Positions 31,590-62,160 of a stretch of DNA of 64,000 bases are shown piece by piece. The position numbers and the translations under genes are program-made. The first letter of the stretch is position 1, and each line of letters begins with the position of its first letter. This DNA is from Ulva prolifera (Eukaryota; Chlorophyta; Ulvophyceae; Ulvales; Ulvaceae), in the NCBI GenBank assembly GCA_023078555.1, contig CM041201.1, positions 3,417,713 through 3,481,712 of the forward strand. Reading direction: 5' to 3'. The notes under the pieces are model-generated. The model was not told where the DNA came from. It saw only the letters and a list, made by a program, of their open reading frames with translations, and ran no database searches.

Positions 31590-32116
31590 GGGCGTTTTGA
31601 TGCGTGATCACGGCGGGCGGACGAGTAGATTGGTTGAGGAAAGCTTGAGAGTTACGCAACAGAGCCGCTTGTTACCAAGACTTGTGGATGCTCGTAGTCG
31701 TCTTGTGCCCAGCCCACGTCGACGGCTGCGGCGGGCGCTGTCAACAACTTCGATCTGGCCTTCACGTCGTTCAGCACCTCAGATTATTATAATCGGAGCG
31801 ATGTAGGCGCTTCTAGCGTGACTGGCGGGTGATGGACATAGTTCGCTTGAGTGGGTTGAATGTTGCTTGACTTGTCTCTGCGCCAGGATATTTTCGTGTA
31901 CAGGGGGCAACGAGGCTTCGTGCTATTCCCTACTCACTATTGTTACATACTGGTGGGCTCGTTCAGGCGACATGTGGCTCGACACGGCGTAGTCTGCCTG
32001 TGGCAAGCTGCGAGCTCAGTCAGAAGATCAGCAGCGCCAACTACGATCCCATCGTGCTGTAGTGCACATGCCATACAATTTGTTATTCGTGTATAGCTTG
32101 TTGTTGGAGCTTCAAA
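31590..32116 (+). promoter_or_regulatory. Conserved upstream block of array unit 1
   Basis: It begins with a fossil LINE 3'-end-like stretch and GATCACGGCGGGCGGACGAG, which matches the block before unit 3 (42536-42575). It then carries the GTCGACGGC...GTCAACAA segment and GCTGCGAGCTCAG at 32007. The order of blocks is the same as upstream of units 2, 3, 4 and 6. Confidence 0.6.
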
Positions 32117-32127
32117 CACATATATAG
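32117..32127 (+). promoter_or_regulatory. TATA box of array unit 1
   Basis: CACATATATAG lies 140 bases before the ATG. The same word, at a similar distance, precedes units 2, 3, 5 and 6. Confidence 0.7.
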
Positions 32128-32256
32128 TCTCGTTTGGTGGTCTGCCCGATTAAACTGTGGTATCTCCTTGTGTGCATCGCCACTTGCAACCTGCCTGTCC
32201 ACAAGCCAAGCTCCCCCTGCTTCTGTATGCGCTCCAGCAGTACACATCGCGACATC

Positions 32257-32858
32257 ATGCGTGCTCCTGTTGCACCATTGGTGTGTGCATGCTACTTGTT
32301 CGCCCAGTGTGCAGTCACTGTGTGTGGCATGGATTGTTTCAATCCTGCAGACCCCATCGGAAACCGCCTCTACTACTGCACCATGCGCCTCTCTTCCACC
32401 GCAGACATCGCAGGCCATACTGTGGCCGCGGAGATCTTCAATCCATCGCAGGATCCCTATGAACTTGACGCTTATCTCGTTGACCAGCCTTTCCTTGGGA
32501 ATGACAGAGAGGTGTTCTTTCAGTTTGACGCAGCCGGCACTGAAACCTCCCCAGCGTGCCTGCACCTGGAGAAGGTCGAGCTCAGCATCAAAACGCCACA
32601 TATGTACGAGGAGATCGACAGAATCGTCCTGCGCTCCTTCAAAGGCGGAGATCCGGCCACACAGCGACTGCTGGGCGAACACATCGGTGCAACATCCAGC
32701 TTGCAACGTTCTTGTATGACTACGTAAACGGTCAGCCGGCTGGAGTACTGGACTACTACATTGGCTACGAGAGCGCGAGCGTGTTTGTTGATATCTCATG
32801 TGAAGGCCCGCAAACAACGGAGCAGTTTGCATTTGAGGTTGAACACGTGCACCCCTGA
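32257..32858 (+). pseudogene. Array unit 1: small secreted protein, subfamily A, frameshifted
   Basis: The frame opens with a signal peptide (MRAPVAPLVCACYLFAQCAV) and the mature start CFNPADPIGN. It continues through YYCTMRLS, SPACLHLEKVELSIKTP and IVLRSFKGGDPATQ to GEHIGA. A one-base indel near 32680-32700 then moves the conserved C-terminus (FLYDYVNG...ISCEGPQTTEQFAFEVEH) into another frame. Unshifted translation stops at 32727. Subfamily A has four conserved mature cysteines, and unit 5 is its closest relative here. I do not recognise the family; extracellular location follows from the signal peptide. The single indel could be a real mutation or an assembly error. Confidence 0.75.
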
Positions 32859-33440
32859 TGGCAGCACTCAGCACCTGAGTGGATGAGTGAGATGCACCTC
32901 GCACAGCGTTTGCTGTCCTAGTCGCCACTGTGCTTTAGAATTGCTCATGGTATATTAGTAGAGGGCGGTCACATATGCTTAGATTGAGACACGTGGTCTC
33001 CGTTCGCGCGATGTAGGTTGGCAGGCGGCCCGTTCAAAAGTGTTGGATTGTGAGTATAGACTGGTAGGATCGCGATGAGTGACATTCCGTGGACAGAGCA
33101 GCAGCAGCCTGATCAGCATGTACGGCTGACATGAGCGCAGTGTGTTCGAGAATGTTCCTGGGCAAGACATCAGCAGATACATGTGCAGATACATCAGCCA
33201 GCATGTAATTTGTAGCGCTCGACACGTTGACGCGGTGCTGCTCATTGCTGACAGCCCGTTCCCTGCTGCAGCCATATCTCTTTGTGGCTGGTTTTCCATG
33301 CTTTCTAGTGTGGTACGTTTCGCATCTATAGTCTGGTTGAACATGACCTATGGTATACGGTGGCCACAGGGAGCAGCCTTGCACTCAGCCCAGCTCTGGG
33401 ATAGGCATCCGTGTGTGTCAAGGGCACAGCCGGAGCGGTA
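32859..33440 (+). other. 3' flank of array unit 1
   Basis: It aligns with the 3' flanks of units 2, 3, 6 and 7. The conserved core is CATCAGCCAGCATGTAATTTGTAG at about 33190-33215, roughly 340 bases after the stop. It contains TGTAA, the usual chlorophyte polyadenylation signal. Confidence 0.55.
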
Positions 33441-34140
33441 GATTGCACCGCAGGAAGCTCACGCGCCAAAATGACATGCAATAGTGCACACACAAGCCAC
33501 CACCGCCACCCCACGCAGAACAACCTTCAGGCACAGCGGCCCGTCAATCCCACCCATGCCATATCGCCACCAGCATCACCGAAGTCCCAGCCGGCACACG
33601 TACACCCATTCCACACCACAGCGCGCTCCCAGAGACGCCTCCGCACGCGCGGCCTGGGGCCAGACACCGGCACACAGCCCCCCCCCCCCCCCCCCCCCCC
33701 CCCCCGCCGCGGCCTCCGACTGGCACAGAACATGCAGAGGGCTGCTCCGCACCCACACTGCGGCACGCGTCACAATCAAACCTCATCGGTGTACATCTGC
33801 TGAGCCGCCCCCACCGCGGAGCCACAGAGCCATGACGCCATGGCTCTAGAGATGCCACAGATCTGTGGCGACACGGACCGCGCGTCCCGGCGACGGACTC
33901 GTCGGATGAGGCGGGCTCACAAAAGGCCGGCCGTGCGCCAGGCAGCGGTGCAGGCCCGGGCGTCGGCCCGTCGCATGCGAAGCTGGGCGCATGGATGATA
34001 TCATTCATGCATATGCTATCAGTCATGACTGGCAGGCCCTGCAGGCACCACCAGAGCATCCTCGCCTTGGGGAGCTTTCATGATTTGAAGCACCCTGAAC
34101 CATGCGGCCGGTGGACTGCGGTCATCGCCCCAGGCCTGTG
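33441..34140. other. Repeat-rich stretch without genes, including a 28-base C run
   Basis: An uninterrupted run of 28 C occupies 33678-33705. The surrounding frames are short and overlap. No domain was recognised. Confidence 0.5.
33678..33705. repeat. 28-base homopolymer of C
   Basis: This is an uninterrupted poly-C (poly-G on the minus strand). Comparable G runs lie at 58753-58777 and 59079-59102. Exact lengths of such runs are unreliable in assemblies. Confidence 0.9.
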
Positions 34141-34214
34141 GCGTGGGCCGCAGCGGGTGGCTAGCCACCCGCTGACCCGGGCCAGCATGTCTAGCCACCC
34201 GCTGCGGCCCACGC
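34141..34214. repeat. Perfect 24-base inverted repeat
   Basis: The arm at 34141-34164 (GCGTGGGCCGCAGCGG...) is the exact complement of 34191-34214, with a 26-base loop that holds a partial third copy. A second palindrome, GGGCGAATATTCGCCC, lies at 34260-34275. Confidence 0.93.
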
Positions 34215-34275
34215 TGCACTGCATGACCTGGATCACCTGCAGACACGACGTGAATATTCAGGGCGAATATTCGCC

Positions 34276-36740: not shown

Positions 36741-36860
36741 GTCAAAAGGGCAAAGGTAGCGTGGCAGGCGGCATCGCGAAAGCAGCGAGCATCGCAGAAA
36801 CACGAACCAGTCCGGCGCACCCACGCCACAGCCGTGACCAGCGCACGCAACATTCATTAC
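36741..36860 (-). repeat. Inverted LINE 3'-end fragment
   Basis: The minus strand ends in GCCTTTGCCC after a CGCGATGCCGCCTGCC stretch. This is a worn version of TTTCGCGGTGCTGCCCGCC...CCTTTGTCCTTGTAAC. It interrupts the block upstream of unit 2 relative to unit 4. Confidence 0.5.
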
Positions 36861-36869
36861 AGCGGTGTA

Positions 36870-37345
36870 GTGGCCAGCGGTGCTACCTGCCGTGCATGCT
36901 TCTCCAACTTTGTCCTTCGTACTCATGGTCATGGCAGGTGGAACTGATAGGAGGGAATTCAAAGCTCCGTAGCAGGACATGCTCGATTCACCTGCTGCGA
37001 ACAGTGGTGCCCGAGTTGCAGATGTTCACCGTCGTGCTGCATGCTTGCTATGTCAGCGGCCCCGGCTGGCGGTGTAAACAACCTGAAGCTGCCCGGAACA
37101 TTGCTCGGCAACGTAGAACATGTTTAGAGCATCGAGTCGCGCCTAGCGTGACTGGCGGACGACGGAGCAGGCGTGCTTGTGTAAACTGTAGCTTGTTTGT
37201 GTCACCCGGAAGCTGCTGGTACACAGAGGCCAACGAAGACTGCTGCATGTCTTCAATTTATAATGTATGAGACTGAGGGGACGAGACAGAGCCACTTGTG
37301 GCGCCAGCATGGCGCGCCTTACCAGAGGCGGGTTGCGAGCTCACG
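36870..37345 (+). promoter_or_regulatory. Conserved upstream block of array unit 2
   Basis: It starts with a fossil LINE end (GCGGTGCTACCTGCC...CTTTGTCCTTCGTAC) followed by TCATGGTCATGGCAGG. It then carries CAGCGGCCCCGGCTGGCGG, TTGTGTAAACTGTAGCTTG and GGGTTGCGAGCTCAC. Unit 4 has the same blocks at 45330-45800. The block is separated from its TATA box by the transposon at 37352-38927. Confidence 0.6.
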
Positions 37346-37351
37346 CAGGAG

Positions 37352-38927
37352 AGGGGGGTCGGCACTCAGTCCTCATGCACGTCCAATTGAACCGCGAGCA
37401 CCTCAGAAAGCTCTAGACAGCGCTGGGAACGTCTATAGACTCACAGCAACTTCATGAATGCTGCTGTATCTTTGTTTTGAGTCGCTGGGCGAAATCGACC
37501 TTTGGCCCGAAATCCGCGTGCATGGCTGGGCAAAAAGCCCCATTGTGCCCAGCGAGCACGAATTCGCGCCCAGCGATACTGGAAGCATGCCCAATGGCCT
37601 CACAACACCCTTAGTATGCCTCTAATGCATCCTGATGCGTTATAAATGGTCGGTCGTGTTGCTGCGGGCGGTACAGCGCATGCTCTGCCATGTTTGCTTC
37701 CCTGGGACGCCATCGACCGCGTCCCAGGAGCTGGCACGCACAGAGTAATTACCGGAGATATTTGAGATGTCTTTTTGGGTCTGGCGAGACTATTGCTTGC
37801 TCTCTGTCGGTCTGGGTGGGCAGATTGGCTGCTGCATTTTGTACTCCATAGTGCTGGGCGTTGTCAACAGTCAATCACGACAGGGCCAGGCATAGACTCT
37901 GCAGCACATAAGATTGGCACGTCCTGACAGCATATGTGACACTTTCTTTCCATCCAGGTTACGTGTGACGACCTTGTTGCATACATGTGTGACTCTGTAT
38001 CTCTCTGAGATACCACTGGAGAGTAGTGTATCGCCCTCTTCAGCAGATCAGGCACTGTTTAGGACCACGGCAGGCTATCTCTCGTAAAACTGTGCGTGGC
38101 TCTACTGCATGTTAGTGTGGACTCAGGCGCACAATGACGAGCCTACGCAAGCCTCCCATTTTGTAGAATGGTGCTTGCTTGCAGTCCATGCTGATGATAG
38201 GAATGTACATGTACATCCAACTTCATATTCTGATCGCTTTTGATGAACATTCCTGGTCGGTGGTGCTGCTGTCCCTGTGATCTAAAGGTGTACAAGGAGC
38301 ACTGCTATGCAGTGTAGCATGCCACATTGACTGATCCGGAGGTTCACGCAGTACTGTATGGACAGACATCAAATTAGTGGTGACAACAATACTGATTTAA
38401 GGTGAAGCTCACAACACTGGAGCTGCTGCGATGTTTTGAGTCTCTCTCTGCAACGAGCACCTCGTTCATGTGCTCTTTGTTCACCACACAAGACAGCTGC
38501 ATATTTGCTAATAGTTTGGTAAGCTCGCGGAAATAATGGTACTCGTTGGGATTCACCCCGCCAGTATGTTCGCCCGCCATGATGCTGGTCGGACGCGAAC
38601 ACCGCACGGTGACACAAGTGGAGTTGGCAGACAGTGGAACATCAGTGCATAACATGATAGTGTTTTTCGAGTGCTCTCTGCCCACTGATCACGATGGGCA
38701 TACGCTGGGCACCGTTTGAGGCCATCTGAGCCGTCGCTGGGCAAAACGGGGGGTTTGGTCCAAAAACCCCGGTTTCGCTGGGCGTTTTCACCTGTTTCGC
38801 CCAGACTACTTATAATCGATTCAAGAGGATACTCCGAGTCTATAGGACGTTTCCGCGCTGTCTGGAGCTTTCTGAGGTGCTCGCGGTTCAATTGGACGTG
38901 CATGAGGCCCGAGTGCCGACCCCCCTA
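37352..38927. mobile_element. Non-autonomous DNA transposon with about 88-base terminal inverted repeats
   Basis: The left end AGGGGGGTCGGCACTC and the following 70 bases reappear in reverse complement at 38830-38926 with a few mismatches. The element is flanked by GCAGGAG on both sides (37345-37351 and 38928-38934). Removing it and one copy of GCAGGAG restores the promoter block seen in units 4 and 5. Subterminal copies of CGCTGGGC in both orientations lie inside each end, as in elements whose transposase binds subterminal repeats. No transposase is recognisable; the largest internal frame is a 103-codon minus-strand ORF at 38374-38685. The 7-8 base duplication would suit a hAT-like element, but the superfamily is unproven. 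Confidence 0.85.
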
Positions 38928-39063
38928 GCAGGAGCTCAGCAACGCCGACAGCCATACGACGCGATCGTGCAGCACACCACAGCCATACCACGACGCGATC
39001 GTGCAGCACACCACAAGCCATACGACCTGCTGTCTGTTTGACCTTGCCCCTGGAAGTGTGGGT
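38928..39063 (+). promoter_or_regulatory. Promoter-proximal block of array unit 2
   Basis: AGCAGGAGCTCAGCAACGCC continues the block broken by the transposon. A CACGACGCGATCGTGCAGCA segment is then tandemly duplicated (about 38955-39010). Unit 4 has a single copy of this segment. Confidence 0.6.
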
Positions 39064-39216: not shown

Positions 39217-40163
39217 ATGCGGGCTCCTGTGGCCCTGTTGCTGCTTGCGTGCTACATGTTAGCCCAGTGTACAGCCTTCGTGTGGAGCCGAGGCTGCTTC
39301 AATCCTGAAGACTCGCACACCGCAAACATGCTGTTGCTTGGTGGGGTGGGGTTGGGTCTTGGGGCCAGGGTGGCCCCCGGCAATCGGGCGGCCATGATGG
39401 GCGGCCTCAGGCAGGTGTGTTGGGTTTGGCCCTGTCGTACGTGTTACAAGGACAAAGGCAGCAAGGGTTTGTGGGTGTGTGGGTGTGTGCTTGGCGGTCT
39501 ACGGGTCTGTGTCTTTTGCTGCGCCGGTTCTGGGTTTTTTTTTCTGGGCGTGGTGTCGCGTGCGTGGGTGTCTGTGTGTTTGCATCGTTTGTTTGCTTCT
39601 TTCGCGGTGATGCCCGCCTTGCTGCCTTTGTCGTTGTAACGCACCGCAGACAGGTCCTGCAGCTGTGCACTGCAGTTCTTCGGCACAGGCATGGAAGGCA
39701 AGGGCGTGTCCCTGAAGATCTTCAACCCTCTGCAAGGCGACATGGTGACCGCAGATACCCCCTTTGACCATAAGAAAGCAGCGGTCGAGTTCCTTGCACC
39801 CGTATGGATATCCACGACACTAGGCCGGTCTGCCCGCACCTGGACAAGATCGAGGTCACCTTCAAGGCTCCGGACGCCATCAGCTCAATCGGCATGCTTG
39901 TCCTGGACTCGTTCGAAGGCAAGGTGCCTGCCACCCAGGTCCCACTGGGCGAGTGCTTCACAATCGAGCAGCGTGAAGTGCGGCCCAGGATCCTCTGGAG
40001 ACGGCCCCAGACAATCAGCAGTGTGTATGGGGCTGTGTGGGCCGACCTCTGGTGTGCATTCAAGCCAGGCCGGCAGCCGGCCGGTTCTCGAGAGAACCTT
40101 GGAACTCCAGAGCAGATTGCCTGTGAGCAGCGGCCCGGAACAGAGCTCCAGAGTGGCTGCTAG
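39217..40163 (+). pseudogene. Array unit 2: small secreted protein, subfamily B, with insertion and frameshift
   Basis: A signal peptide (ALLLLACYMLAQCTAF) is followed by CFNPEDSHTA. A 317-base LINE fragment then interrupts the frame. Coding resumes at CSCALQFFGTGMEGKG and matches unit 6 closely. About eight extra bases (GTATGGAT, near 39807) shift the frame, and the remainder (ECFTIEQREVRP...SVYG...LWCAFKPGR...LQSGC) continues in the new frame to 40163. A donor-like G/GTGGGG at 39350 and acceptor CGCAG at 39649 could splice the insertion out in frame, adding about five residues. The downstream frameshift would still truncate the protein. Confidence 0.78.
39325..39641 (+). mobile_element. 5'-truncated LINE 3' end inserted in unit 2
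   Basis: It contains the G/T-rich block (GGTGGGGTGGGGTTGGG, GGCCCCCGGCAATCGGG) and ends CCTTTGTCGTTGTAAC. It is flanked by CACCGCA direct repeats (39318-39324 and 39642-39648). Removing it and one repeat restores the frame seen in unit 6. Its blocks align in order with the last 380 bases of the insertion in unit 5. Confidence 0.83.
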
Positions 40164-40700: not shown

Positions 40701-41401
40701 ACTGTGTAAGTATCGAGCATGTAGCATGAGATAGGCCGCTGCTGCGTGGCCACGCTGGCACGAGATAATACGCGCAGGCCTCATGGTAGCAGACATCTCT
40801 GCACAGGTGCCTGGGGCAGCCACCAGAGCCTCCGATGTAGGCCGCCCGGCCCCGTGCTATGGTAAAAGCTTGAATAGCTGTACCCCGTGACGTAAGATTA
40901 TATACCTCAGAGTCTGCTGACGCATGGCAAAGGACACCTGATCATGAGCCTCAAACGCACCAGACTTGCGAATGTCCGGGGCAGCGAACTCTTCCGCGAC
41001 AGCGCCAGCTCTCTCGGGGTTCACGCACCTGTTTTGGATGTAGATCCACTGCCGCACTGCCGTGGCTGCGGTGCGCGGCGGCAGATCTCACACAGCACCC
41101 CAATCGCTGCCTCGCCTGCGCAGATAACGCCACTGTTCACGCTGACACGCTGCCCCACACAGACAATTGAAGCAGCTGCTGGGCATGCTCGGCAGGCGGG
41201 TCTGAGCCGTATGCTGCTTCTGTTGGTCTGCTGACCGCTATCACCCAGTGGCCTCCGCCGACTGGCTGTTCCCCTTCCCCGCCGCGTAGTTCGCTGGATC
41301 TCTGCATGGCGCGGGGTCGTTGTGGCAGGGCCTGTGCTGCCATGACGCGGCGCGGTGCAGGCTTTGGCGGGGGTGCTGGACGCGTACCGGCTGTCTGTTA
41401 C

Positions 41402-41493
41402 AAAAGAGTGAACGGGAGAAGACAAACCCCGAAGCCGAATCTCATCCGAAGCAACAGCAACACACACATAGGCACATAACCACACCGGCTGCA
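41402..41493 (-). mobile_element. Short reverse LINE-end insertion with 12-base target duplication
   Basis: The core AAAAGAGTGAACGGGAGAA is shared with the insertion at 45912-46010. GCTGTCTGTTAC flanks it on both sides (41390-41401 and 41494-41505). On the minus strand it ends CTCCCGTTCACTCTTTTGTAAC-like, similar to the longer LINE ends. Confidence 0.75.
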
Positions 41494-42535: not shown

Positions 42536-43032
42536 ATGATCATGGCAGGCGGCCGAGTGGATCTGTTCGGGGAGCCTTTGGACCTTCGCGAGGAAATGGT
42601 ATCCACAGTTGCTGCCAAGCCTGGTGCCTGCCTTGCGGGTGATCACAGTGGATTTGCGCCCGGCCAATGTCGACGGCCCCTGCGACCATATCCACACCCC
42701 AACGATGCCCACATGCCGCTCAGCATACTCCTATAAACCTATTTGCAGCAGTGCGACGCAGGGGCGCGTAGCGCGAGTAGCGGACGATGGCGCACGCACG
42801 CTTGAGGGCGTTGCTGCTGGTGTTTTCTCCTCGGGACTCGCTAGCCTATAGATATGATGCCTGAAATTACTAATTATGGGACTAGGAAGTCGAGACAGGG
42901 CCATGTGTGGCGTCAGCATGGCGTAATTTGCCGGACACGGGCGCGACGTCGATCAGAAGCTCGAAAACTATGGTGCGGTCGTGCAGAACGTCGCATGTCG
43001 CACAACCCGCTGTCAATCTGGAGCTCTGAGAT
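42536..43032 (+). promoter_or_regulatory. Conserved upstream block of array unit 3
   Basis: The blocks shared with other units are ATGATCATGGCAGGCGG, AATGTCGACGGCCCC, TGTGTGGCGTCAGCATGGCG and a worn GCTCGAAAAC version of the GAGCTC element. Confidence 0.55.
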
Positions 43033-43042
43033 ACATATATAG
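43033..43042 (+). promoter_or_regulatory. TATA box of array unit 3
   Basis: ACATATATAG lies 147 bases after position 43042, counted to the ATG at 43189, as in the sister units. Confidence 0.7.
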
Positions 43043-43188
43043 TCTGTGAGGATGGTGTGCTCACATGATCTGTGTTACCTAGGTGTGCCTTGTGCCTCTG
43101 TACATACCCACTACAGCAATCTGCCTGTCCGAAATCCAAGCCCACATCCCCATGCTCTTAGCTACGCTTCAGCAGCACATCTAAAGAC

Positions 43189-43815
43189 ATGATGCGCTCT
43201 CATCTTGCATCATTTGTGCTTGCCTGCTACGTAGTTGCCCAGTGTGCAGTCTTTGTGCGGGGCAGAGGCTGTTTCGGTACTGGTCCTCAGCACTCACGCT
43301 TAGCAGACATTGGACTCCGCTGCGCATTACAGTTCTTCGCCACAGGCATGGAGGGCAAAAATGTGTCCCTGGCGATCTCCGACCCCGAAGACGGCACCAT
43401 CATAACTGACGATGCTCCTTTTGATGAGGAGAAAGCAGTGATAGAGTTTTATGCTCGTATCCACTCGGGTCCACTTTCTGGTGCTGGCCGTACGACCTGC
43501 TTGCACGTTGAAAGAATCGCAGTTATCTTCAACGCGCCGTATCACATCGATTCGATCGACAAGCTTTTCCTGGACTCATTCGAGGGCGAGTATCCAGCCA
43601 CTCAAGAACCCCTGGGCCAGTGTTTCACCATTGAGCAGCGGGAAGTGCGGCGCCGGGGCTGGCAACAGGAGATCGTTTCCAGTGTGTACGGCACCGTCTA
43701 CACTGACCTATGGTGTGCAACTGTCCATAGCCGGTCAGGTCGGCGTGGCACACCTGAGCAGATCGCGTTTGAGCAGCGGCCCAGAAAAGGGCTGGCCCTC
43801 CAGAGTGGCTGCTAG
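43189..43815 (+). CDS. Array unit 3: small secreted six-cysteine protein, subfamily B (intact)
   Basis: The single exon encodes 208 residues. Two ATGs are adjacent (43189 and 43192); the second corresponds to the start in sister units. A signal peptide (SFVLACYVVAQCAVFVRG) is followed by a mature domain with six conserved cysteines, in GCFG, RCALQFF, TCLHVERI, QCFTIEQREVR, YTDLWC and the C-terminal LQSGC. It shares the blocks FATGMEGK, DSFEG..PATQEPLG and TPEQIAFEQ with units 2 and 6. An extra nine or so residues after ARIHS distinguish it from unit 6. No known domain is recognised. The regular cysteines suggest a disulfide-stabilised extracellular protein. This and unit 6 are the only uninterrupted members. 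Confidence 0.82.
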   Translation: MMRSHLASFVLACYVVAQCAVFVRGRGCFGTGPQHSRLADIGLRCALQFFATGMEGKNVSLAISDPEDGTIITDDAPFDEEKAVIEFYARIHSGPLSGAGRTTCLHVERIAVIFNAPYHIDSIDKLFLDSFEGEYPATQEPLGQCFTIEQREVRRRGWQQEIVSSVYGTVYTDLWCATVHSRSGRRGTPEQIAFEQRPRKGLALQSGC

Positions 43816-44440
43816 CACCCGGGTGGAACACAAACATACGATAGCTGTCGATGACTACTTGTCATAAGTACAGTGGTGTAGTATGGTCTGGATGCATCGC
43901 TTTTTGTTTTTGGTGTGGTTCACTGGTGTGGCATGGTTCGGGTTCGTGTAGGTCCGGGTTCGTGTAGGTCCCCTGGCAGCCAATCATGCTGAGAATAAGA
44001 CGTGTGGCCTTTCTCTGAGAATAATATGTGTGGCCTTTCTCTCTGAGAATAATATGGGTGGCCTTGTGGCCTGTATGCCTGCACTGTAGAGTAGCACGAG
44101 GGCAAGAGAAAGGTGTTTGAGTTTTAGTAGGTATGCAGGATCGCGATGATCGACAATTCAACAGAATGAACAGCACTAGCATGAGCAGCTGCTGTGGACT
44201 GTGTGATATTTAATTGAGGAAGTGCTGGTGCAGGGCATATGATACCAGCGAGCTTGTAAGCGGCAGCTGCTGCAATATTGGTGCCTGACACATTGATGCT
44301 GTCTTGCCGCCAGCACACAGCCAGCACACATTCATTACACATTCGCACACATTCATTACACATTCATTCACGCTCCCAGCATATCTCTTGTTGCAGCGTT
44401 GCTGGCCAGCAGCATGCCTGACAATCTCGCAGAGTTTCAC
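43816..44440 (+). other. 3' flank of array unit 3 with tandem repeats
   Basis: The flank contains tandem repeats at 43983-44062 and 44310-44375 and a conserved CCAGCGAGCTTGTAAGC near 44247, the counterpart of the TGTAA-containing block of the other units. Confidence 0.5.
43983..44062 (+). repeat. Threefold tandem repeat of about 27 bases
   Basis: The unit CTGAGAATAATATGTGTGG with CCTTTCTCT is repeated three times with small changes. Confidence 0.85.
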
Positions 44441-45329: not shown

Positions 45330-45900
45330 AGTAGCTTGCGGTGCTGTGTGCCGAACATGCTTCTCGGGCTTTCTCCTTGTGGCTCATGGTCGTGGCCGGC
45401 AACACGGAGCTCCGGAGTACGAGCCGGCCGTTACGTGTACACTGTACAGCCGCAGCGACTGGGCTTGCGCCCGAGTTGCAGACGTTCACCACGGTGTCGC
45501 GCGCCGGCAATATCAACGGCCCCAGCGGGCGGTATCAACAACCTGGTGCTGCCCGCCATGCAGCTCATGATCAGCAGCGTTGAAATTGTGGAGCAGTCCA
45601 GTGTAGGCGTGCCTGGCTCGACTGGCAGACGATGGAGCAAGCGCGCTTGTGTAAACTGTAGCTTGCTTCGTTCCCTCGGAAGTTTCGGGTGTGCAGAGAC
45701 CAACGAGGGGCGCTGCATGTCTGAAAGCACGGGAACGAGGGGATCTGTGGCGCTAGCATGGCGTAACGTGCCGGAGGCGGGCTGCGAGCTCAAGCAGGAG
45801 CTCAGCAACGCTGACCACGATGTGCTCGTGCAGCACACCACAAGCCACACGACCTGCTGTCTGTCCAAAGCCTGCTCCTGGAGGCATACGTCACATACAC
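45330..45900 (+). promoter_or_regulatory. Conserved upstream block and TATA region of array unit 4
   Basis: A fossil LINE-end-like GCGGTGCTGTGTGCC...CTTTCTCCTTGTGGC is followed by TCATGGTCGTGGC. Then come AATATCAACGGCCCC, TTGTGTAAACTGTAGCTTG, GTGGCGCTAGCATGGCG and GGGCTGCGAGCTCAAGCAGG. A weak TATA-like CACATACAC lies just before the insertion at 45912. Confidence 0.6.
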
Positions 45901-45911
45901 AAGCTCTGCTG

Positions 45912-46010
45912 TGTTTACAAAAGAGTGAACGGGAGAATACAAACACCAAAACCGAATCTCATCCGAATCAACAGCAACACATACACACACGATCACACTA
46001 CATCCGCACC
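45912..46010 (-). mobile_element. Short reverse LINE-end insertion beside the unit 4 TATA box
   Basis: This 99-base element is flanked by CAAGCTCTGCTG (45900-45911 and 46011-46022). The body shares AAAAGAGTGAACGGGAGAA and CCGAATCTCATCCGAA with the element at 41402-41493. It separates the TATA-like sequence from the transcription start region of unit 4. Confidence 0.82.
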
Positions 46011-46175
46011 CAAGCTCTGCTGGTGGTCTGCTGACATGATTTGCCTCAGTCGCAGTGTTCCAGTCACACTCGTGTGCTCTGTACGTCGGCACCAGCAACC
46101 TGCCTGTGCGTACGTAATACAAGCCCACACTCGCCTCACCTCCTTCTGGGCGTCAGCAGTGCAATCTGAGGCATC

Positions 46176-46310
46176 ATGCGTGCTCCTGTTGTGCTATCGT
46201 TACTTGCCTGCTACTTGTCGGCCCACTTCGCAGCCTTCAACATGGCTGGGGCTGCTATATCTCCTGAAGACTTCGGTCGGGCTTACAACGTCATGGACCA
46301 TCGATGATAT
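46176..46310 (+). pseudogene. Array unit 4: stub with signal peptide only
   Basis: The ATG at 46176 opens a typical family signal peptide (MRAPVVLSLLACYLSAHFAAF), but the mature part diverges at once and stops after about 44 codons. A faint resemblance to the PACLHLEK segment follows near 46340. The 5' leader is well conserved with units 2 and 6. Together with the promoter insertion, this marks a dead copy. Confidence 0.7.
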
Positions 46311-48127: not shown

Positions 48128-48269
48128 ACGACGAGTGAAGCCTGCATGTGCGACCAAGCCTCCGCAGCCTGCACCTCGTTTGCAGACAAAAAAAGCCGTG
48201 GGAGAGGGTGTTGTGCAGCACCACAGCCCGTGGTTTCGAGATATCTGCGGGCTGGATATCTCAGGGCTG

Positions 48270-48436
48270 GATACAGGCCGACGTGTGGCTTCAGCACGCC
48301 GTAAACTGTTTGCCAGAGGCGGGCTGCGAGCTCAGTCAGGAGCTCAGCAACGCCAACTACGATCCCCTCGTGCCGTAGTTCACATGCCATGCGATCTGAT
48401 ATTCGTCTAAGGCTTGTTTGTGAAGTGTCCTTCCCA
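48270..48436 (+). promoter_or_regulatory. Promoter-proximal block of array unit 5
   Basis: The region carries GTGTGGCTTCAGCACGCCG, GAGGCGGGCTGCGAGCTCAG and CAGGAGCTCAGCAACGCC, in the same order as in units 1, 4 and 6. The more distal blocks are missing, replaced by the TTTAC-tailed repeat. Confidence 0.65.
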
Positions 48437-48447
48437 CACATATATAC
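48437..48447 (+). promoter_or_regulatory. TATA box of array unit 5
   Basis: CACATATATAC lies 135 bases before the ATG at 48572. Confidence 0.7.
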
Positions 48448-48571
48448 CCTGTTGTAGTGGCCTGCCCATATGATCGATCTGTGTGTTGCCATTAGCGACC
48501 TGCCACTCCACAGGTCCAGCCAACCCTCGCCTTGCCTCTTGCTGCACTTCAGCAGTAGACTTTGAAACATT

Positions 48572-50543
48572 ATGCGTGCTCCTGTCGCACCACTGGTGAC
48601 TGCATGCTACTTGTTGGCCCAATGTGCAGTCCTTGTTCACGGTGCTTGTTTCAATCCTGGAGACCCCGTCGGAAACGGTGTATACTACTGCACCATGCAA
48701 CTCTCTGGAGACAGGGACATGGACGGCCAGCGCGTGTCCCTGGTGGACACCTCTGATCCTCTGACGGGCGACTATGACCCTGCACCATTTGAGCGTCAGC
48801 AGGTGGAGCTTGAGTTTCATGCGCCCGGCCGCGGCACGGACTCCTACCCTGCTTGCCAGCACCTGGAAGAGATCGAGCTTACATTCTTCACATACTTGTA
48901 CGAAGAGACTGACAGAATTGTCCTGCGCTCGTTTGAAGACAGGACCCGGTCGCGCCCGCTCCTCCTCATGGCGCCCAGGCCCCGTCCCCCACCATCCCGC
49001 AGCCTGCTCCAGCATGCCCCGACAGCGCGACGCCGTCCCCCGCGGCCGACCACGCCGCAAACTCCCCCGCCCCCGCCGCGGTCGCGCCCGCTCTCTCCCA
49101 TGGCGCCCAGGCACCCTCTTCCCTCACGTACGCGGCTGTCCTTGCGTCCTCCTGTGCTGCCACAACGGCGACCGGTGCCGACGCCCCCGCTGGTGCGGCC
49201 GCCCCCCACACCGCGCAGGCGGTGCCGCAAGCACCGCAGCGGTCGGTCCAAGCACCAGCTGCCCCGTCGCCGGCTGTGCCCCGGTCCCGCAGACCCGCAC
49301 AGCGGGGCGACATCCTCGCGTTCTTCCCGGGCGCGCCGGTCATCGGCGACGTGTGCGTCACCCACCCGCTGGCTTCCTCGAACGTCAGCGCCGCGGCGCT
49401 CCGCGACGGTGCCTCGGCAGAGGCTGCCGACCGGCGCAAACGCGAAAAGTACGGCCGGGCCGGCGCGGGCGCGTTCACGCTGGTCCCGCTGACGCATGAG
49501 ACGTACGGCCGTGTTGGCCCGGCCGCCTTTGCATTCCTCAACAGGCTTGCTGATGTGGCTGCAGGGTCTGGCGCGGCCTCTCGGCGGCGTTTCCTGGAGA
49601 ACGCAATGCGCGATCTCTCGACGACGCTCTGTCGTGCAGTGGCGCGCCAGGTGCGCGCCGCAGCTCCGCTGATGGCACGTCACGCGGGCAAGGCAGTTTT
49701 GGCGGGACTCACAGTCCCATCTGATGACCTCTCGCCGCTTACAGGCCATCCGGCCTGAGCGGTGGGGTGCCCCTTGGGCGCCCCGTCCGCTTGACGCCAC
49801 CGACCTGTGGCCTCTGACTCCAGCTAAGCCGGGTCTGGTGGGTGTGCGGGATGCCTTCGTTGGCATGTGCAGGGCCTGCGGAGACGGCTTGGGCGATGCA
49901 TTGTCCTGGGTGCGGTGCGGCGTGGGCCGGCGAGGCTGCGCGGCGGTGTGCCGGGCTGGCGTGGTGTGCTGTGGCTCGGTGGGGTGGGGGCGGGTCTTGG
50001 GGCCAGGGCGGCCCCCGGCAATCGGGCGGCCATGATGGGCGGCCTCAGGCGGCAGTGTGTTGGGTTTGGCCCTGTCGTACGGCGGCGGGCGTTGTGGTGC
50101 TGGTGGTTGTGATGTTGTGTGTCGGCCGTGGGGTTTGTGCGTGCGTGTGTGGGTTTGGGTTTGTGGGTGTGTGGGTGTGTGCTTGGCGGTCTACGGATCT
50201 GTGTCATCTTCGCCGGTGCTGGGGGTTTTTTTTCTGGGCGTGGTGGGTGTCGCGTGCGTGGGTGTCTGTGTGTTTGCTTCGTCTGTTTGCTTCGAAAGAA
50301 TTCTTTCGCGGTGCTGCCCGCCTTGCTGCCTTTGTCCTTGTAACACAGGAACCGGCCACCCAGGACCCGTTGGGCAGCACCGTTACTGTGAGGCGTATCT
50401 TGACAAAGAGTACTTACGATGATTACGGCAACTACGGCAGTTTCGGATACTACACCGATTATGGGGATCTATTCATCGGGATCTCGTGTGAATTTGAAGG
50501 TTCACAAACAACAGAGCAGATCGCCTTTACTGTAGACCATTGA
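48572..50543 (+). pseudogene. Array unit 5: small secreted protein, subfamily A, split by a 1.4-kb insertion
   Basis: The first part (48572-48938) encodes a signal peptide (MRAPVAPLVTACYLLAQCAV) and CFNPGDPVGN, YYCTMQLS, PACQHLEEIELTF and RIVLRSFE. A LINE fragment of about 1.4 kb follows. Coding resumes at 50349 with EPATQDPLGS, then DDYGNYGSFGYYTDYG and the conserved end ISCEFEGSQTTEQIAFTVDH. The subfamily A cysteines are present. The insertion ends in ACACAG, which looks like a splice acceptor, but no good donor restores the frame, so the gene is probably broken. Confidence 0.78.
48945..50344 (+). mobile_element. 5'-truncated LINE with C-terminal domain and 3' UTR
   Basis: An open frame to 49758 gives an Ala/Pro-rich linker, then RGDILAFFPGAPVIGDVCVTHP, FTLVPLTHETYGRVG, FLNRLADVAAGSG, AMRDLSTTLCRAVARQ and GLTVPSDDLSPLTGHPA. 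This is the C-terminal domain that follows the RT and zinc knuckle in LINEs of this kind (known to me from algal relatives). The G/T-rich 3' UTR ends CCTTTGTCCTTGTAAC. The insertion is bounded by ACAGGA repeats (48939-48944 and 50345-50350). It is the longest copy here and defines the family 3' end. Confidence 0.8.
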
Positions 50544-54479: not shown

Positions 54480-55075
54480 GTTTCGTCACCTGCGGTGATA
54501 ACCGCCTCACCTGCCTGTCCGAGTTCGTCCGTGCGATGCATGATCATCGCAGGAGAACTATCAGACCAGTCTAGGCCCGTCGAGGGACATTCGAACCTCC
54601 GAGGTGAGAGGTGGTCAGTACAAGGACTGCGAGACCAGGTGCCCGCCTGCTTGCAGATGTGCACAGCCGTGTCGCGCCCAGTCAACGGCCCTGGCGGGCG
54701 ATTGCAGCAGTATGAAGTTGCCTGGAAGGTCTCTCACCGCCTCAAAGGAGGCATGTCATTGCGACGAAGGCGCGTTGAGCGCGACTGGCAGGCAATGCCA
54801 CGCACACGCTTGTATGGGTTGTGCCTTGCTTCTTCTCCTTCTGAAATGCTGGTGTATAGAAGCCGACGGGCTCTGAAACATGTCTTCGGTTACTGAGTAA
54901 TCCGGCGGGCGGTCCAGACAGGGCGGTCAGGACGTGTGGCCTGAGCACAGTGTAATTCGCCCGAGGCGGGCTGCGAGCTCAAACACGAGCTCAGCAACGC
55001 TGACCACGATGTGCATCTTTTCACAGGCCACATAGTCCACAGTCAAATCACAGGTCGCCCCTGAAGCCTGCAGCC
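54480..55075 (+). promoter_or_regulatory. Conserved upstream block of array unit 6
   Basis: The blocks are TGCATGATCATCGCAGGAG, AGTCAACGGCCCTGGCGGGCG, GTGTGGCCTGAGCACAG and GAGGCGGGCTGCGAGCTCAA followed by GAGCTCAGCAACGCTGACC. Their order matches units 2 and 4. Confidence 0.65.
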
Positions 55076-55086
55076 CACATATACAG
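55076..55086 (+). promoter_or_regulatory. TATA box of array unit 6
   Basis: CACATATACAG lies 138 bases before the ATG at 55214. Confidence 0.65.
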
Positions 55087-55213
55087 TCTCCGTGGTCGGT
55101 GCTCATATCATCTGTGCTTCTGTTCATCAGCAACAGCAACCTGCCAGTCCGCAAGTCAAGCCCACCTCCCACCCCATTTTTTGCTTCGCTGCAGCAGTCC
55201 GTTTGCAGACACC

Positions 55214-55807
55214 ATGCGCGCTTCCGTTGCACCATGGGTGCTCGCTTGCTCCATCTTTGCCCAGTGTGCAGCTGTTGTGTGGGGCAGCAACTGCTTCAAT
55301 CCTGCACACGGACACGTCGCAGACGGGTCCTTCAGCTGCGCATTGCAGTTCTTCGCCACAGGCATGGAAGGCAAGAGCGTGTCCCTGAAGATCTTCAACC
55401 CTCTGCAAGGTGACATGGTGACCTCAACTGTTCCCTTTGACCATGAGAAGGCTGTGGTGGAGTTCGACGCACCCATCCATAACACTCTGCCTGCCTGCTT
55501 GCACCTGGAGAAAATCGAGGTCACCTTCAAGGCTCCATACGTCATCGATTCCATCGACAAGCTCGTCCTCAACTCGTTTGAAGGCGAGAAGCCGGCCACT
55601 CAGGAGCCGCTGGGCGAGTGCTTCACGATTGAGCAGCGGGAAGTGCGGCCCGGGGGCTGGGGGCCGCCCCGGACGATCACCAGCGTGTATGGCACGGTGT
55701 ACACCGACCTGTGGTGTGCATTCAAGCCCGGCCGATACCCACATGACCTCGGCGAACCGCAGCAGATTGCCTTCAAGCAGCACAGCTACCTCCAGAGTGG
55801 CTGCTAG
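55214..55807 (+). CDS. Array unit 6: small secreted six-cysteine protein, subfamily B (intact)
   Basis: The single exon encodes 197 residues. Residues 1-24 form a signal peptide (VLACSIFAQCAAVVWG). The mature chain has cysteines at 27, 42, 95, 136, 168 and 197, the last being the C-terminal residue. Blocks in order are FNPAHGHVADG, CALQFFATGMEGKSVSLKIF, DHEKAVVEFDAP, PACLHLEKIEVTFKAPY, LNSFEGEKPATQEPLGECF, TIEQREVRPGGWGPP, SVYGTVYTDLWCAFKPGR and LQSGC. No known domain is recognised. It is the best-preserved member and the reference for the family. The start was fixed by homology of the signal peptide; an upstream in-frame TTG at 55181 is not used. Confidence 0.85.
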   Translation: MRASVAPWVLACSIFAQCAAVVWGSNCFNPAHGHVADGSFSCALQFFATGMEGKSVSLKIFNPLQGDMVTSTVPFDHEKAVVEFDAPIHNTLPACLHLEKIEVTFKAPYVIDSIDKLVLNSFEGEKPATQEPLGECFTIEQREVRPGGWGPPRTITSVYGTVYTDLWCAFKPGRYPHDLGEPQQIAFKQHSYLQSGC

Positions 55808-56450
55808 ATCACGAGCGGGTGGTGAGCGGCTTCTCTCACAGCATCGTGCTGTGACTGGATGCGACCGCGGTTTACAATCAAGTAGGCAGCTGCGCTGAGA
55901 CGGAGTTGGGCGGTTGAGGTCCGATTAAGGGCTGCAGACTGATAGAAGGACCATTCGGGTTCAATTGTACCAGGTATAGATTTGTTGGGCTGCGGTAAGT
56001 GATATTGGACTAGAGTAGAGCAGCACTGGCATGAGCAGCATAGTATAGCTGATGGCGATGCAGCACTGCTGCAGAAGCTCTGGCACAAGACATCAGCCAG
56101 CTTGTAAACTGTAGTGTGTGTTACATCGATGCGGCGTGGCCTGCAACTGTTCGCTCTTGACAGCATATATCATACCAAATGCCCTATGTCATAGCGTGGC
56201 GCCTTTGCTTGCCGGCATCCTTGCTGGGGTTCCATGCAGTCTTAAGCGTTGACAATTCAGACACCCTGCAGCATCTTTGGTGCAGCCATCCTGAAAACAG
56301 ACCTGAATATTCTGACTTGTTCTACCTGGTCCGGCAATTCACCACTGGTCACATGCACCCTCTACCCGTCCGCCGGCATCAGTCCACTGCTGACAGCTTC
56401 TACGCCTCGAGTTTGAAACGTTCATATGTAGCAAAAGACAGTACCATGTT
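55808..56450 (+). other. 3' flank of array unit 6
   Basis: It contains CATCAGCCAGCTTGTAAACT near 56090, 290 bases after the stop, with the TGTAA motif. The whole stretch aligns with the 3' flanks of units 1, 2, 3 and 7 and again with 56860-57240. Confidence 0.6.
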
Positions 56451-56859: not shown

Positions 56860-57610
56860 AACATGTGGAGGATTGCCACAGGATCGACAGCTGTGTTAGT
56901 GATGCAGTACAGCTGTGATGCAGCACTGCTGCCGAAGCTCTGGCACAAGACATCAGCCAGCTTGTGAGTTTGAGTGTCTGCCATGTCTATGCGGCCTTTC
57001 CTAGGAAAGCTGCGATTGTTCGCTCTTGACAGCATATGTCCCAAGGTCACCTTGCCGGCAGACTGACCAGGGTTATATGCAGTGTGGAGGCGCCTTGCAA
57101 CAGCTTTGGCGCCGCCACCCTGGAAACGTACTCTAATTCTCTAGTTTCGGTCTATCTGGTCTGACGATCCAACACTGGCAGCATGCATCCCGTGCATGTC
57201 CACAAGCACTAGCCCACTGCTGACAGCTTTTGCTCCTCGACCTTGCAATGTCCACACCCTGTTGTAGACGGTACCTTGTGCACTGTTCTATGATGTGTGC
57301 TGTTCAATCCCCAGTCCTGGGAACTGGTGGCCCACGACCCGTCACGGCAATTGAGGCAGCAACTTGAATGCATGAGGTGAATCTCAGACCGGCTGATGTA
57401 TCAAAAGCTTCAATTCGATGGGACATCGGATCATGCGCATTCAAATGTTCAAAGTCAACCAACCGGCTCACTGCGATGGCGCCACACTGCCCTCCAAACT
57501 TTGGGTGATGTGGAAAGGCCAGGGGGCCACGGTGTTGCTGGCAGCTACACTGCCTTGACGACGGTGATCCGAGGGTTGAAAAGGCATCGACGAAGGAGGT
57601 CAGATAGTTG
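56860..57610 (+). other. Orphan 3'-flank copy without its gene
   Basis: The sequence from GATGCAGCACTGCTGC through CATCAGCCAGCTTGTGAG to about 57600 repeats the 3' flank of unit 6 and the region after unit 7 (59770-60300; for example CCGGCTCACTGC and GGCGCCACACTGCC). No family coding sequence precedes it. Confidence 0.6.
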
Positions 57611-58895: not shown

Positions 58896-58925
58896 TAACA
58901 CAATCAAGATTTACTTTACTTTACA
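58896..58925 (+). repeat. TTTAC-tail fragment
   Basis: AATCAAGATTTACTTTACTTTACAC is the tail of the TTTAC-tailed repeat family; the upstream part is missing. Confidence 0.6.
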
Positions 58926-59078: not shown

Positions 59079-59102
59079 GGGGGGGGGGGGGGGGGGGGGG
59101 GG
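59079..59102. repeat. 24-base homopolymer of G
   Basis: An uninterrupted G run directly upstream of a half-hairpin (GTGATAGCGGCTATGG) related to the 43-base foldback family. Confidence 0.9.
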
Positions 59103-59265
59103 TGCACAACTGTGATAGCGGCTATGGCACTGAATCGCCACAATGCACCTAAGCCACAGCCTGCAGCCCTCACGCGCACAGAAACAACCACCCGTCACGG
59201 AGCGCATTCTGTGGGGCGGCAGCTACAGCAGCTGTCGAGTCATTGGGGGGTCTCTCGTGTCCGAA

Positions 59266-59428
59266 CCAGTGCATGCCTATGGTATCTCTGTACACAGCTG
59301 GGCCTGTTTTGATCTGGTTAAGCTGTGGCGTCAGGTGACGAGACATAGACGCTGCAGTGGCGCGCGAACCTTGCGAACCTGAGCAGCTTGCCTTCGAGCA
59401 GCTGAGCGACCTCAAGGGTGGGTGCTAG
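59266..59428 (+). pseudogene. Array unit 7: 3' remnant of subfamily B gene
   Basis: Only the last 55 or so codons remain. Pieces such as AYGISVHSWACF (compare VYGTVYTDLWCAF) and EPEQLAFEQLSDLKGGC with a stop at 59428 align with the unit 6 C-terminus. The downstream 550 bases continue to match the unit 6 3' flank. The 5' part has been replaced by repeat-derived sequence. Confidence 0.65.
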
Positions 59429-59649
59429 AGCACGATCCCTCTCACAAAATCGTGGTGTGAGTAGAGGTGACCGTGATTTGTCAATGTTCAAGTAGGAAAT
59501 AGCTTACGCAGCTATGCTGAGACCGAGATGTGTGGTTGTGTATGCATGTACGCGCTGTATACGCAGATCGGTAGATGGAACATGCCGGGGGGTGTGAGTA
59601 CAGCTCTTTCGGGCTGCAATGAGTGACAGTGGACTGCACCAGAGCAGCA

Positions 59650-59737
59650 CGGCATATGTGGTCCCGTTAATTCGGAGTTGTCAATGTCCAATAGGATACG
59701 GCTCAGTCAATTCAGATCTACTTTACTTTACTTTACT
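59650..59737 (+). mobile_element. TTTAC-tailed short repeat in the 3' flank of unit 7
   Basis: It runs from GGCATATGTGGTCCCGTTAA to repeated TTTAC. The flank of unit 6 lacks it at the corresponding place (GAGCAGCAC / TGGCATGAGC), so its limits are given by the empty site. Confidence 0.82.
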
Positions 59738-60300
59738 GGCATGAGCAGCATGACGCAGCTCATGCCGATGCAGTGCCTTTGCAGAAGTGCTAGCGCAAGA
59801 CATCAGCCAGCTTGTAATTTGTAGTGTCGGGCACGCGACGCGGGCCTTGCCTGCAACTGCATGTTCACTCCTGCCAGCATATACAAAGTGTCAGCAGTGC
59901 TTGCCGGCAGCCTTACTGGGCGGAAATGCACCCCGTGCCTGTCCGCCAGCGCCAGTCCACTGCTGACACCTTGTGCTCCTTAACTTAACTATGCAACATG
60001 CAGCATTCAGTGAGGATATCACGCTGCTGCGTGCTGCGCTACAAGGAGGAAGGTGCATGCTGTGTGCGGTGCGTGCCCCAGGCAGCTGGTGACCCACAGC
60101 TTGCCAGGGAGCGTGGAGGCAGGAACGCATGCTCCTCATGTCTCATGCAAATGTGGCGACAGATTAGGTGCATCTGGATGATCCATATGACTCAACCGGC
60201 TCACTGCCACGGCGCCACACTGCCTTCACATGTGAGAGGGCTGCCGCAGCGCGCGGGGGAGTTGCTTGCAGCTGCCCTGCCTTGCGCCCGGTGACCTGAA
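59738..60300 (+). other. 3' flank of array unit 7
   Basis: It contains CATCAGCCAGCTTGTAATTT near 59800 and further matches to 56860-57610. No gene is present. Confidence 0.55.
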
Positions 60301-62160
60301 CATCGACATGTCACCGACAGAGTGGACATAAATCGTTGGGAAAATGGTGGTGCGAAGCCTGCAGTGAGGCTCCACTGATGCTGCAGCACTGCAGGCCAAG
60401 ACTGAACTCAGCAGCTGCCCTCGGCCCGGGGCCTATGTCTGGTCTCCAAACACGTACTGCACTCTATGACAGCTGCGGAACTTCAAGGTGTGTTGACAAT
60501 ACGCTTCAGGCGGTAGGCTTTAGGCTCAGTATGGCAATTTGATATGATTGATATTCCATGGTGTACTGCATGGCCGCACTCAGCACTGCCAGCTGTCACT
60601 CACAGGCAGTTGTGCAGCACACGTGCATGCATATGCAGGCCCAGAGACATGCCGGCTAGCCTCTGAAGTGAGCTTTTCTATTGCCCTCAGACCTCGGACA
60701 TCTATTCAGGCAGTGCCACAAGGGTGCGGGCAGTCCGAACTCAGGCCGAGCCAAATCTTGAACAGCTCACACGTTGCAGATCCAAAAAGTCAAGCAATCG
60801 ATGCATTATGGCAGTACAGGTAGCTGCTACATTTGCAAAAGTGGCAGTCGTGTAGGCATACTGTGATGTAGCAGGCCTGGGCAGTTCGCCTGTACACGTG
60901 TATGATCACCGCCACTGCATCGCTGTCATGGTCACGGAAGCAGAGCGCCCTGCTTCCGGCGTGGCAAGCCAACTCCGGCATCTTGAAGCGGTAATCGTGC
61001 ACAGACGTGCGCGGACGTGAAGCCCCGGATACGATGTCCACGTGATCACAGATGTGGCCACGAGTGGCTGCATGGGCCATGACCCGTTTTCAAGGGGTGG
61101 CGCACCTCCTCGAGGATCCCCAGACATCTGACAGCGGCCACCAGAGCTGCCTGTGCCTGGGAAGCAGCCCCCCTCACGGAGGCTACACCGGTAGGCCCAG
61201 CCGGCGGTGCCCTCAAACGCGTCCAGCGGTGCCGTGTGCGCCGCGCGTGTAGAAGCCGAGGTCAGCTAGGCAGTGCATCGGGTAGCGCCAGAACACCGCC
61301 GGAAGGTGTGGTATCAGCATGGAGCATCTGCACAACATCAACACCTTGGTGAGACCGGTCGGCGCGAGCCGGCCATACACAAGGGGGGGAGGGGGGTGGC
61401 GTTCCTCGACGGCTGTGCCATATCGGCCATATCTCGGGAGCATTGGCATCTACCCAGGTGGTCGCCTGTGGCTACGAGCGCCGTGACACAGGAGCGCCAC
61501 CGCGTGCAGGTGCGGAACGCTCACAATCAGGTGCATCATATGCGGGGGGAGCCACCTGGGGAGCCGGGTGTGTGTGCTCACGCAGTGCACATGTACATAT
61601 GCAGGGGGCCTCGCACTTCAATCATGCGTCCACACGCGTCCAATGTGATGATGCTTAAGCGCACAATTGTGCGGCGCACTCTGAATTAAGTGCACACAGC
61701 ATTCTGCAATGATTATCACGGGTAGCGCACCCACAGATTGGCATGACGACACCCATCACGACGGCGCCGAGAGCAGATCCAGGCAGCGGGTGAGGCATTG
61801 CGGCGGCGATGGTCATGGCCAGGGCCTCCGCCTGCAGCAGCACCATGCTTCAGGCTCACATGCACTGGTGTCCATCATATCGCAGCTTGGCACTGCTCGA
61901 GCGTAAGCATGAGAACAGATCCAGTGAGGCTCGCGCCCTGTGTGAGCACCATGGCCACTGCTGGGCGACCGTCCCCAGCCCGAGCAATTGTTCTAGAGCG
62001 ACAGTGTCATTTCATTGATGACGCCGAGCTTGATACTGCGGCACCATCCGCGGCCGTCCGCAGTCAGCAACACTGACCCGTACGCCCGGCCGCATGGCGG
62101 CGCCATCGGGGCCGCTCCACAAGGGGACGGCCAGAGCAGCAACAGTAACACGGCCACGAT
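60301..62160. other. No accepted gene
   Basis: The only notable element is the duplicated minus-strand segment at 60880-61150. Other frames are short. Confidence 0.4.
60880..61150 (-). other. Duplicated minus-strand segment, copy 2 (possible exon pair)
   Basis: A CGAGGAG/GTGCGC donor-like site and CATGCAG acceptor precede ATRGHICDHVDIV...MPELACH...DAVAVI. It shares splice-site positions and scattered residues with 58490-58735, but the function is unknown. Confidence 0.3.

Follow-up and report, generated by a model that had tools for sequence, protein, structure and literature searches.

An array of unrecognised, predicted exported protein genes in Ulva prolifera, with broken copies and open frames under purifying selection

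Results

A tandem array of seven units and a distant eighth copy

The window analysed here is a stretch of 64,000 nucleotides from the green alga Ulva prolifera (contig CM041201.1; C6:3417713-3481712), and it contains a tandem array of genes whose products are predicted to be exported. We located the array units by tblastn of units 3 and 6 followed by reading in three frames, and we set the limits of the array by blastn of upstream, coding and downstream pieces of unit 3, unit 6 and a copy lying elsewhere on the contig against the window and 10 kb on either side. The seven plus-strand units of one family that had been claimed from the letters of this DNA alone (hereafter, the original prediction) were confirmed in this way, unit 6 matching unit 3 far beyond chance (tblastn, E 7.8e-70). 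The limits then proposed, 31590-61150, were not borne out: blastn places the array at 31681-59980, and the flanking 10 kb on either side of the window gave no blastn match to any unit piece. Units 3 and 6 are, as predicted, the sole intact units of the array by tblastn, frame reading and blastn; the five others (1, 2, 4, 5 and 7) are broken. The units, which fall into two subfamilies, A and B, are laid out as follows.

31681-59980, plus strand: whole array, seven units (blastn of unit 3, unit 6 and distant-copy pieces)
31681-32256, plus strand: unit 1 upstream block, TATA-like CATATATA at -138
32257-32858, plus strand: unit 1, subfamily A, broken by a frame change near 32.69 kb; coding 32257-32679, then in another frame 32703-32858
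36859-37351, plus strand: distal part of the unit 2 upstream block, separated from the remainder by an inserted element
39217-40163, plus strand: unit 2, subfamily B, broken by an insertion and by a frame change near 39.80 kb; coding pieces 39217-39328, 39640-39804 and 39810-40163
42590-43191, plus strand: unit 3 upstream block, CATATATA at -158
43192-43815, plus strand: unit 3, subfamily B, intact single-exon frame with six mature cysteines; 208 amino acids counting the ATG at 43189
44255-44259, plus strand: unit 3 TGTAA in conserved 3' context
45464-46272, plus strand: unit 4, upstream block and signal peptide only (46176-46272)
48265-50543, plus strand: unit 5, subfamily A, upstream block and coding part broken by an insertion; coding pieces 48572-48938 and 50349-50543
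54580-55213, plus strand: unit 6 upstream block, CATATACA at -136
55214-55807, plus strand: unit 6, subfamily B, intact single-exon frame of 197 amino acids with six mature cysteines
55214-55285, plus strand: unit 6 predicted signal peptide, residues 1-24 (hydrophobic core; cleavage by eye)
56103-56107, plus strand: unit 6 TGTAA in conserved 3' context
56917-57279, plus strand: partial duplicate of the unit 6 3' flank without coding sequence (blastn; pieces 83 and 68 per cent identical to that flank)
59375-59980, plus strand: unit 7, final 17 codons and stop (59375-59428) and 3' flank only

Subfamily B ends in LQSGC and has six cysteines, and subfamily A ends in TTEQIAF and has four, as the frame reading and the cysteine counts agree with the prediction in finding. 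B consists of units 2, 3 and 6 and the distant copy; each of its three complete members (unit 3, unit 6 and the distant copy) has six mature cysteines, and the distant copy ends in LESGC. A consists of units 1 and 5, whose four cysteines were summed over separate stretches (three ahead of the break, one in the C-terminal piece) and whose C-termini are TTEQIAFTVDH and TTEQFAFEVEHVHP. Units 1 and 5 cluster in trees of leader and signal DNA (support 0.997) and of mature protein (0.999), and unit 4 clusters with unit 2 (0.942); branches among the B copies are weakly supported. A is a clear clade; B may or may not be one. Cysteines 4 and 6 of B are both missing from A, and this joint absence suggests that the two form a disulphide pair in B.

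Whole-genome searches (88.9 Mb in 44 contigs) with three family proteins returned 8, 8 and 7 stretches, all of them in the array or at the place of an eighth copy, which lies outside the window, 3.2 Mb away on the same contig (C6:256680-257315, minus strand). No further copy was found in these searches, which also missed units 4 and 7, so that similarly small fragments or remote paralogues could escape them. The eighth copy has an open frame of 211 codons, which shares about 60-63 per cent identity with units 3 and 6. The distant copy retains both the upstream and the downstream block by blastn, which points to an origin by DNA duplication rather than from a messenger copy. Within the array, the stretch 36859-37351 was considered as an additional unit and rejected; it continues at 38929, past an element with inverted repeats, and is thus part of unit 2. 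The upstream block of the distant copy likewise aligns to 36990-37351 and resumes at 38929. One part of the partial duplicate at 56917-57279 may be a dispersed repeat, and other parts of the unit 6 flank also match near the distant copy.

Shared flanking blocks and candidate control sites

The upstream blocks align between copies by blastn in pieces of 38-541 bp at 59-84 per cent identity. The TATA-like CATATATA precedes the ATG in units 1, 2, 3 and 5 (at -138, -151, -158 and -133), and the corresponding site of unit 6 is CATATACA at -136. The aligned site of unit 4 is CATACACAAG, a separate match at -196 sitting within an inserted stretch, and the equivalent in the distant copy is TATACTTG at -142; a good TATA-like match is present in five of seven copies. 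Downstream, TGTAA stands in one conserved context 346, 440, 296 and 307 bp past the stop in units 1, 3 and 6 and the distant copy, respectively, and about 385 bp past the stop in unit 7, while unit 2 has GATAAA at this place and unit 5 has no TGTAA in the 650 bp past its stop. The motif is kept in five of the seven copies that have a 3' flank, all three open copies included; its background is about 0.35 occurrences per 650 bases on the plus strand of the window. TGTAA is the usual polyadenylation signal of green algae. The TATA-like site is a putative promoter and TGTAA a putative 3' signal. The original prediction, according to which the units share signal peptide, leader, promoter and 3' flank, holds wherever these parts are present and fails for unit 7, which has no signal peptide, and for unit 4, which has no mature part.

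The possibility of a gene or exon in the conserved upstream block was rejected by eye: the translated matches listed run in several frames, on both strands and through stops. A 71-bp stretch occurs twice, 92 per cent identical, at 41398-41468 (between units 2 and 3) and at 45915-45985 (in the unit 4 leader), and appears to be a fragment of a dispersed element.

Insertions and loss of copies

Units 2 and 5 are interrupted by related pieces of a long interspersed nuclear element (LINE), and a further element separates the two parts of the unit 2 upstream block.

37352-38926, no strand assigned: 1575-bp element upstream of unit 2, bounded by terminal inverted repeats; no stop-to-stop frame exceeds 123 codons
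39329-39642, plus strand: 5'-truncated LINE end in unit 2, 0.3 kb, related to the 3' end of the unit 5 insert
48950-50344, plus strand: 5'-truncated LINE in unit 5, 1.4 kb

The LINE in unit 2 is bounded by a target-site duplication (39319-39328 and 39643-39652, 9 of 10 bases alike), as is that in unit 5 (48939-48949 and 50345-50355, 10 of 11 bases alike). Introns were considered as the cause of both gaps and rejected, since the unit 5 insert is a copy of a repetitive element, the unit 2 insert is related to it, and near-perfect short duplications flank both. The 3' part of the unit 5 LINE has at least 51 matches in the genome, 40 of these at least 800 bases long (the window's own included), a lower bound given that 40 of 1335 candidates were scored; the best other genomic match among those listed is 96 per cent identical. 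A longer copy (L037) carries, before the same tail, a reverse-transcriptase-like frame recognised by eye; the tail frame itself gave no Pfam match. The 1575-bp element has terminal inverted repeats of 108 bp, alike at 92 of 108 bases. Units 1, 4 and 7 are truncated or broken in frame, with no identified insertion in their coding part.

Predicted export, family searches and fold

A signal-like N-terminus, in which a short basic stretch precedes a strongly hydrophobic core, is present in all six units that have an N-terminus; the core of unit 6 has a Kyte-Doolittle mean of 2.01 over 12 residues. Signal peptides were judged from these two features and the cleavage point was placed by eye. On this basis, the family product is predicted to be exported.

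The family was claimed to be unrecognised, and the searches bear this out: none of Pfam, NCBIfam, PHROGs, PADLOC and PDB sequences gave a significant match to it, and a strong match to a named domain was absent from the family libraries searched. With hmmscan at E up to 10, a setting at which the HMMER filters still discard most weak matches, Pfam returned no family for any of four proteins or nine alignment rows. NCBIfam and PADLOC returned no family match, the sole PHROGs row was at chance level (E 0.42) and PDB sequences gave nothing below E 1. Pattern searches of the IMG/VR and GTDB genomes yielded 52 and 29 stretches, none of them a relative by tblastn, though short patterns could miss remote ones. 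Six family peptides, searched as text, occurred in no paper (a search of printed text, and as such a weak guide to novelty), and the papers listed in literature searches included none on this family.

AlphaFold2 predicted an all-beta structure for unit 6 with its signal peptide (predicted local distance difference test, pLDDT, 63; predicted TM-score, pTM, 0.61) and an all-beta structure with one short helix for mature unit 3 (pLDDT 70, pTM 0.68). In Foldseek searches, lipoxygenases or pancreatic-type lipases account for 24 of the 50 rows listed for the unit 6 model and C2-domain entries for 7, and about half of the 50 rows listed for the mature unit 3 model are antibody chains. The types of match differ between the two models, and a beta-sandwich type is therefore the only safe statement about the predicted fold.

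Several known families were weighed against these results. Membership in a far-diverged branch of the green-algal pherophorin domain (PF12499, DUF3707), which would make the product an extracellular-matrix or sexual-induction protein, is improbable. Like the pherophorins of volvocine green algae, the family consists of predicted exported algal proteins, is a multigene family and has a comparable domain length, the single domain predicted to be exported, of about 175-185 residues, standing against averages of 170 and 155 for the pherophorin N- and C-terminal domains (PMC9818292). Pherophorins, however, are described there as having two domains parted by a hydroxyproline-rich region (PMC9818292), whereas units 3 and 6 have a single domain with neither a proline-rich spacer nor a second domain, and Pfam at E up to 10 gave no pherophorin match in any of the four proteins or nine alignment rows. 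PF12499 had no match in the genome at E <= 1, yet the profile also found none in any of 14 control genomes, so that its absence is not established. The order of some motifs resembles the pherophorin consensus, a resemblance that serves as a lead and not as a test.

A diverged beta sandwich of the PLAT/LH2 (PF01477) or C2 type, binding lipid or a protein partner as plant secreted PLAT proteins do, is about as doubtful. The predicted all-beta structure and weak Foldseek rows speak for it: the unit 6 rows are rich in lipoxygenases and lipases (24) and C2 entries (7), with a best E of 0.014, the aligning part being presumably their PLAT or C2 portion, and pancreatic lipases recur in 5 of the 50 rows listed for mature unit 3. 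These unit 6 rows nevertheless have TM-scores of at most 0.41 and a root-mean-square deviation of at least 7.8 A, and the antibody chains make up about half of the unit 3 list. Neither PF01477 nor PF06232 (plant ATS3) matched the family proteins or alignment rows, and PF06232 had no match in the whole genome at E <= 10. The PLAT exons of the genome itself (6 matches, 5 above the cut-off) exclude the array, and hhalign of the family against five PLAT stretches gave a probability of 0.3 per cent and E 0.2 (thin profiles, without positive control). PLAT membership is thus unsupported. As a separate observation, a row of PLAT-domain stretches, perhaps the exons of one multi-PLAT gene, lies on the minus strand of the array's chromosome at C6:4799029-4806088 (L027, L029-L032).

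Less probable still is a lectin-like carbohydrate-binding protein comparable to UPL1, the N-acetylglucosamine-binding lectin of Ulva pertusa. UPL1 is described as a precursor of 203 residues from a 1084-bp cDNA, with no similarity to known lectins (PMC7024344), and the lengths are close, with 197-208 residues in our family and a predicted transcript of about 1 kb from the TATA-like site to TGTAA. The same source places the mature start of UPL1 at precursor residue 54 (PMC7024344), against a predicted cut near residue 24 here, and the two were compared by description.

Selection on the open frames

The three open frames (unit 3, unit 6 and the distant copy) are under purifying selection. Firstly, the ratio of nonsynonymous to synonymous divergence (dN/dS) is not near 1: over the NG86, YN00 and LWL85 methods it lies at 0.17-0.36 for the three pairs of open copies. 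By NG86, dN is 0.294 and dS 0.870 for units 3 and 6 (dN/dS 0.34), 0.305 and 1.058 for unit 3 and the distant copy (0.29), and 0.275 and 0.853 for unit 6 and the distant copy (0.32). Secondly, third codon positions take the largest share of the changes in the three pairs (84/179, 91/194 and 83/175). Thirdly, when the same substitutions were placed at random, the observed protein identity was reached in none of 1000 trials for each of the pairs. Compared with unit 6, the two pieces of the broken unit 2 have NG86 ratios of 0.51 and 0.34, as expected of a gene that was once functional and has since been a relic for some time. It is most improbable that the family is dead and its open frames are recent relics yet to decay: in its favour stand the breakage of five of the seven array copies and the GTG that the distant copy has at the usual start position, but three frames have stayed open at NG86 synonymous divergences of 0.85-1.06 with dN/dS of 0.29-0.34, and their protein identity is far above that given by random placement of the same changes.

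An antisense gene was also considered and rejected. No frame but the sense one runs without stops in all three open copies, and for each of the three pairs amino-acid identity is highest in that frame; the nearest antisense frame comes close for units 3 and 6 (identity 0.598, against 0.615 for sense) but contains stops.

Other features of the window

Outside the array, the window contains the following.

2561-9744, minus strand: Copia-type retrotransposon with repeated ends (2561-2908 and 9388-9744); its frame 5517-9119 matches Pol_BBD above the cut-off, and rve, gag and zinc-knuckle slightly below theirs
10099-11979, minus strand: reverse-transcriptase frame (RVT_1, E 5.6e-11) in the most GC-rich stretch of the window (0.665)
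15842-16291, minus strand, and 20773-21237, plus strand: pair of closely similar cupin (germin-like) genes, oppositely oriented, which form a second duplicated family in the window
22482-23306, minus strand: frame with PAEGPAEGPA-type repeats and a hydrophobic C-terminal end, without Pfam match
25374-27506, minus strand: haem peroxidase gene of at least two exons (PF00141, E 7.9e-12 and 8.8e-8), with a signal-like start in the frame 26910-27506

A second copy of the Copia element, 95 per cent identical over 3.7 kb, lies to the left of the window, within 10 kb of it (L025). Germin-type cupins and such peroxidases are often extracellular; no link between these neighbours and the array emerged. 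In the genome at large, the chlorophyll a/b-binding family has 38 matches, which mark a photosynthetic organism. An actin gene, with its coding sequence spread over several frames as introns would cause, and the TGTAA sites fit a green alga; the sites for U. prolifera actin primers have 2 and 4 mismatches in 20 bases. Neither an rRNA gene nor a RuBisCO large subunit was recovered.

Discussion

We put at about one half the probability that the array belongs to a small, narrowly distributed family of exported algal proteins in birth-and-death evolution, with a product that is an extracellular, disulphide-stabilised all-beta domain and may bind something. Birth-and-death arrays of secreted protein genes combine tandem duplication, gene death by mobile elements and a few intact copies kept by selection. 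The locus resembles them in each respect and supports the birth-and-death reading that was originally proposed: it has tandem duplicates, broken ones included, one escaped copy, frames lost by LINE insertion, frame break or truncation, and surviving copies under selection (dN/dS 0.17-0.36). Selection averaged over the gene is purifying here, for a sample of three sequences and leaving diversifying sites aside. Turnover of a secreted family is familiar and the general phenomenon is well known; the present family is unassigned, and what is new about it is the distant copy, the cause of death of two units, the selection test, the putative control sites and the all-beta model that has no significant structural match.

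In this birth-and-death family, each gene would be a single exon in a DNA module with its own TATA-like promoter and TGTAA 3' signal, and since the module would include these control sites, a duplicate would arrive with them. The signal peptide would direct the protein out of the cell and would probably be cut near residue 24, leaving as the exported form a single all-beta domain, about 175-185 residues long and stabilised by disulphides. These bonds and a beta sandwich could keep it stable outside the cell, where the product would most likely act in the wall or matrix. It might serve there as a binding domain whose target is a wall polymer, a partner protein or some foreign surface, a guess made by analogy with other single-domain exported beta proteins.

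Several observations weigh against this account. The distant copy, which counts among the three open ones, has GTG in place of the usual ATG, with an in-frame ATG 78 bp upstream. Synonymous divergence is near saturation, which makes dS rough. The paired loss of cysteines was seen in two broken copies only, A being known from units 1 and 5. The AlphaFold2 models were built on nine alignment rows and are of middling confidence (pLDDT 63 and 70), and Foldseek found no match at E <= 0.001 to the PDB for either model, or to viral models for the unit 6 model, the one searched there. Finally, the narrow distribution was judged from prokaryote, virus and curated-family collections, not from algal genomes.

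More specifically, and tentatively, the genes may form a lineage-restricted family of disulphide-stabilised extracellular beta domains with no homologue outside the algal clade, binding to wall, gamete or microbe, whose copy number is turned over by tandem duplication and LINE insertion; the probability of this narrower statement is rather less than half. The interest of the family hinges on its function. The locus offers a legible history of duplication and death, with eight copies of the module, two of them carrying retroelement insertions that can be identified, and three frames that are open and held by purifying selection. A disulphide bond is predicted from the two cysteines that one subfamily lacks together, and the paralogues, with their common leaders and 3' sites, form a set in which it may be tested which control bases matter.

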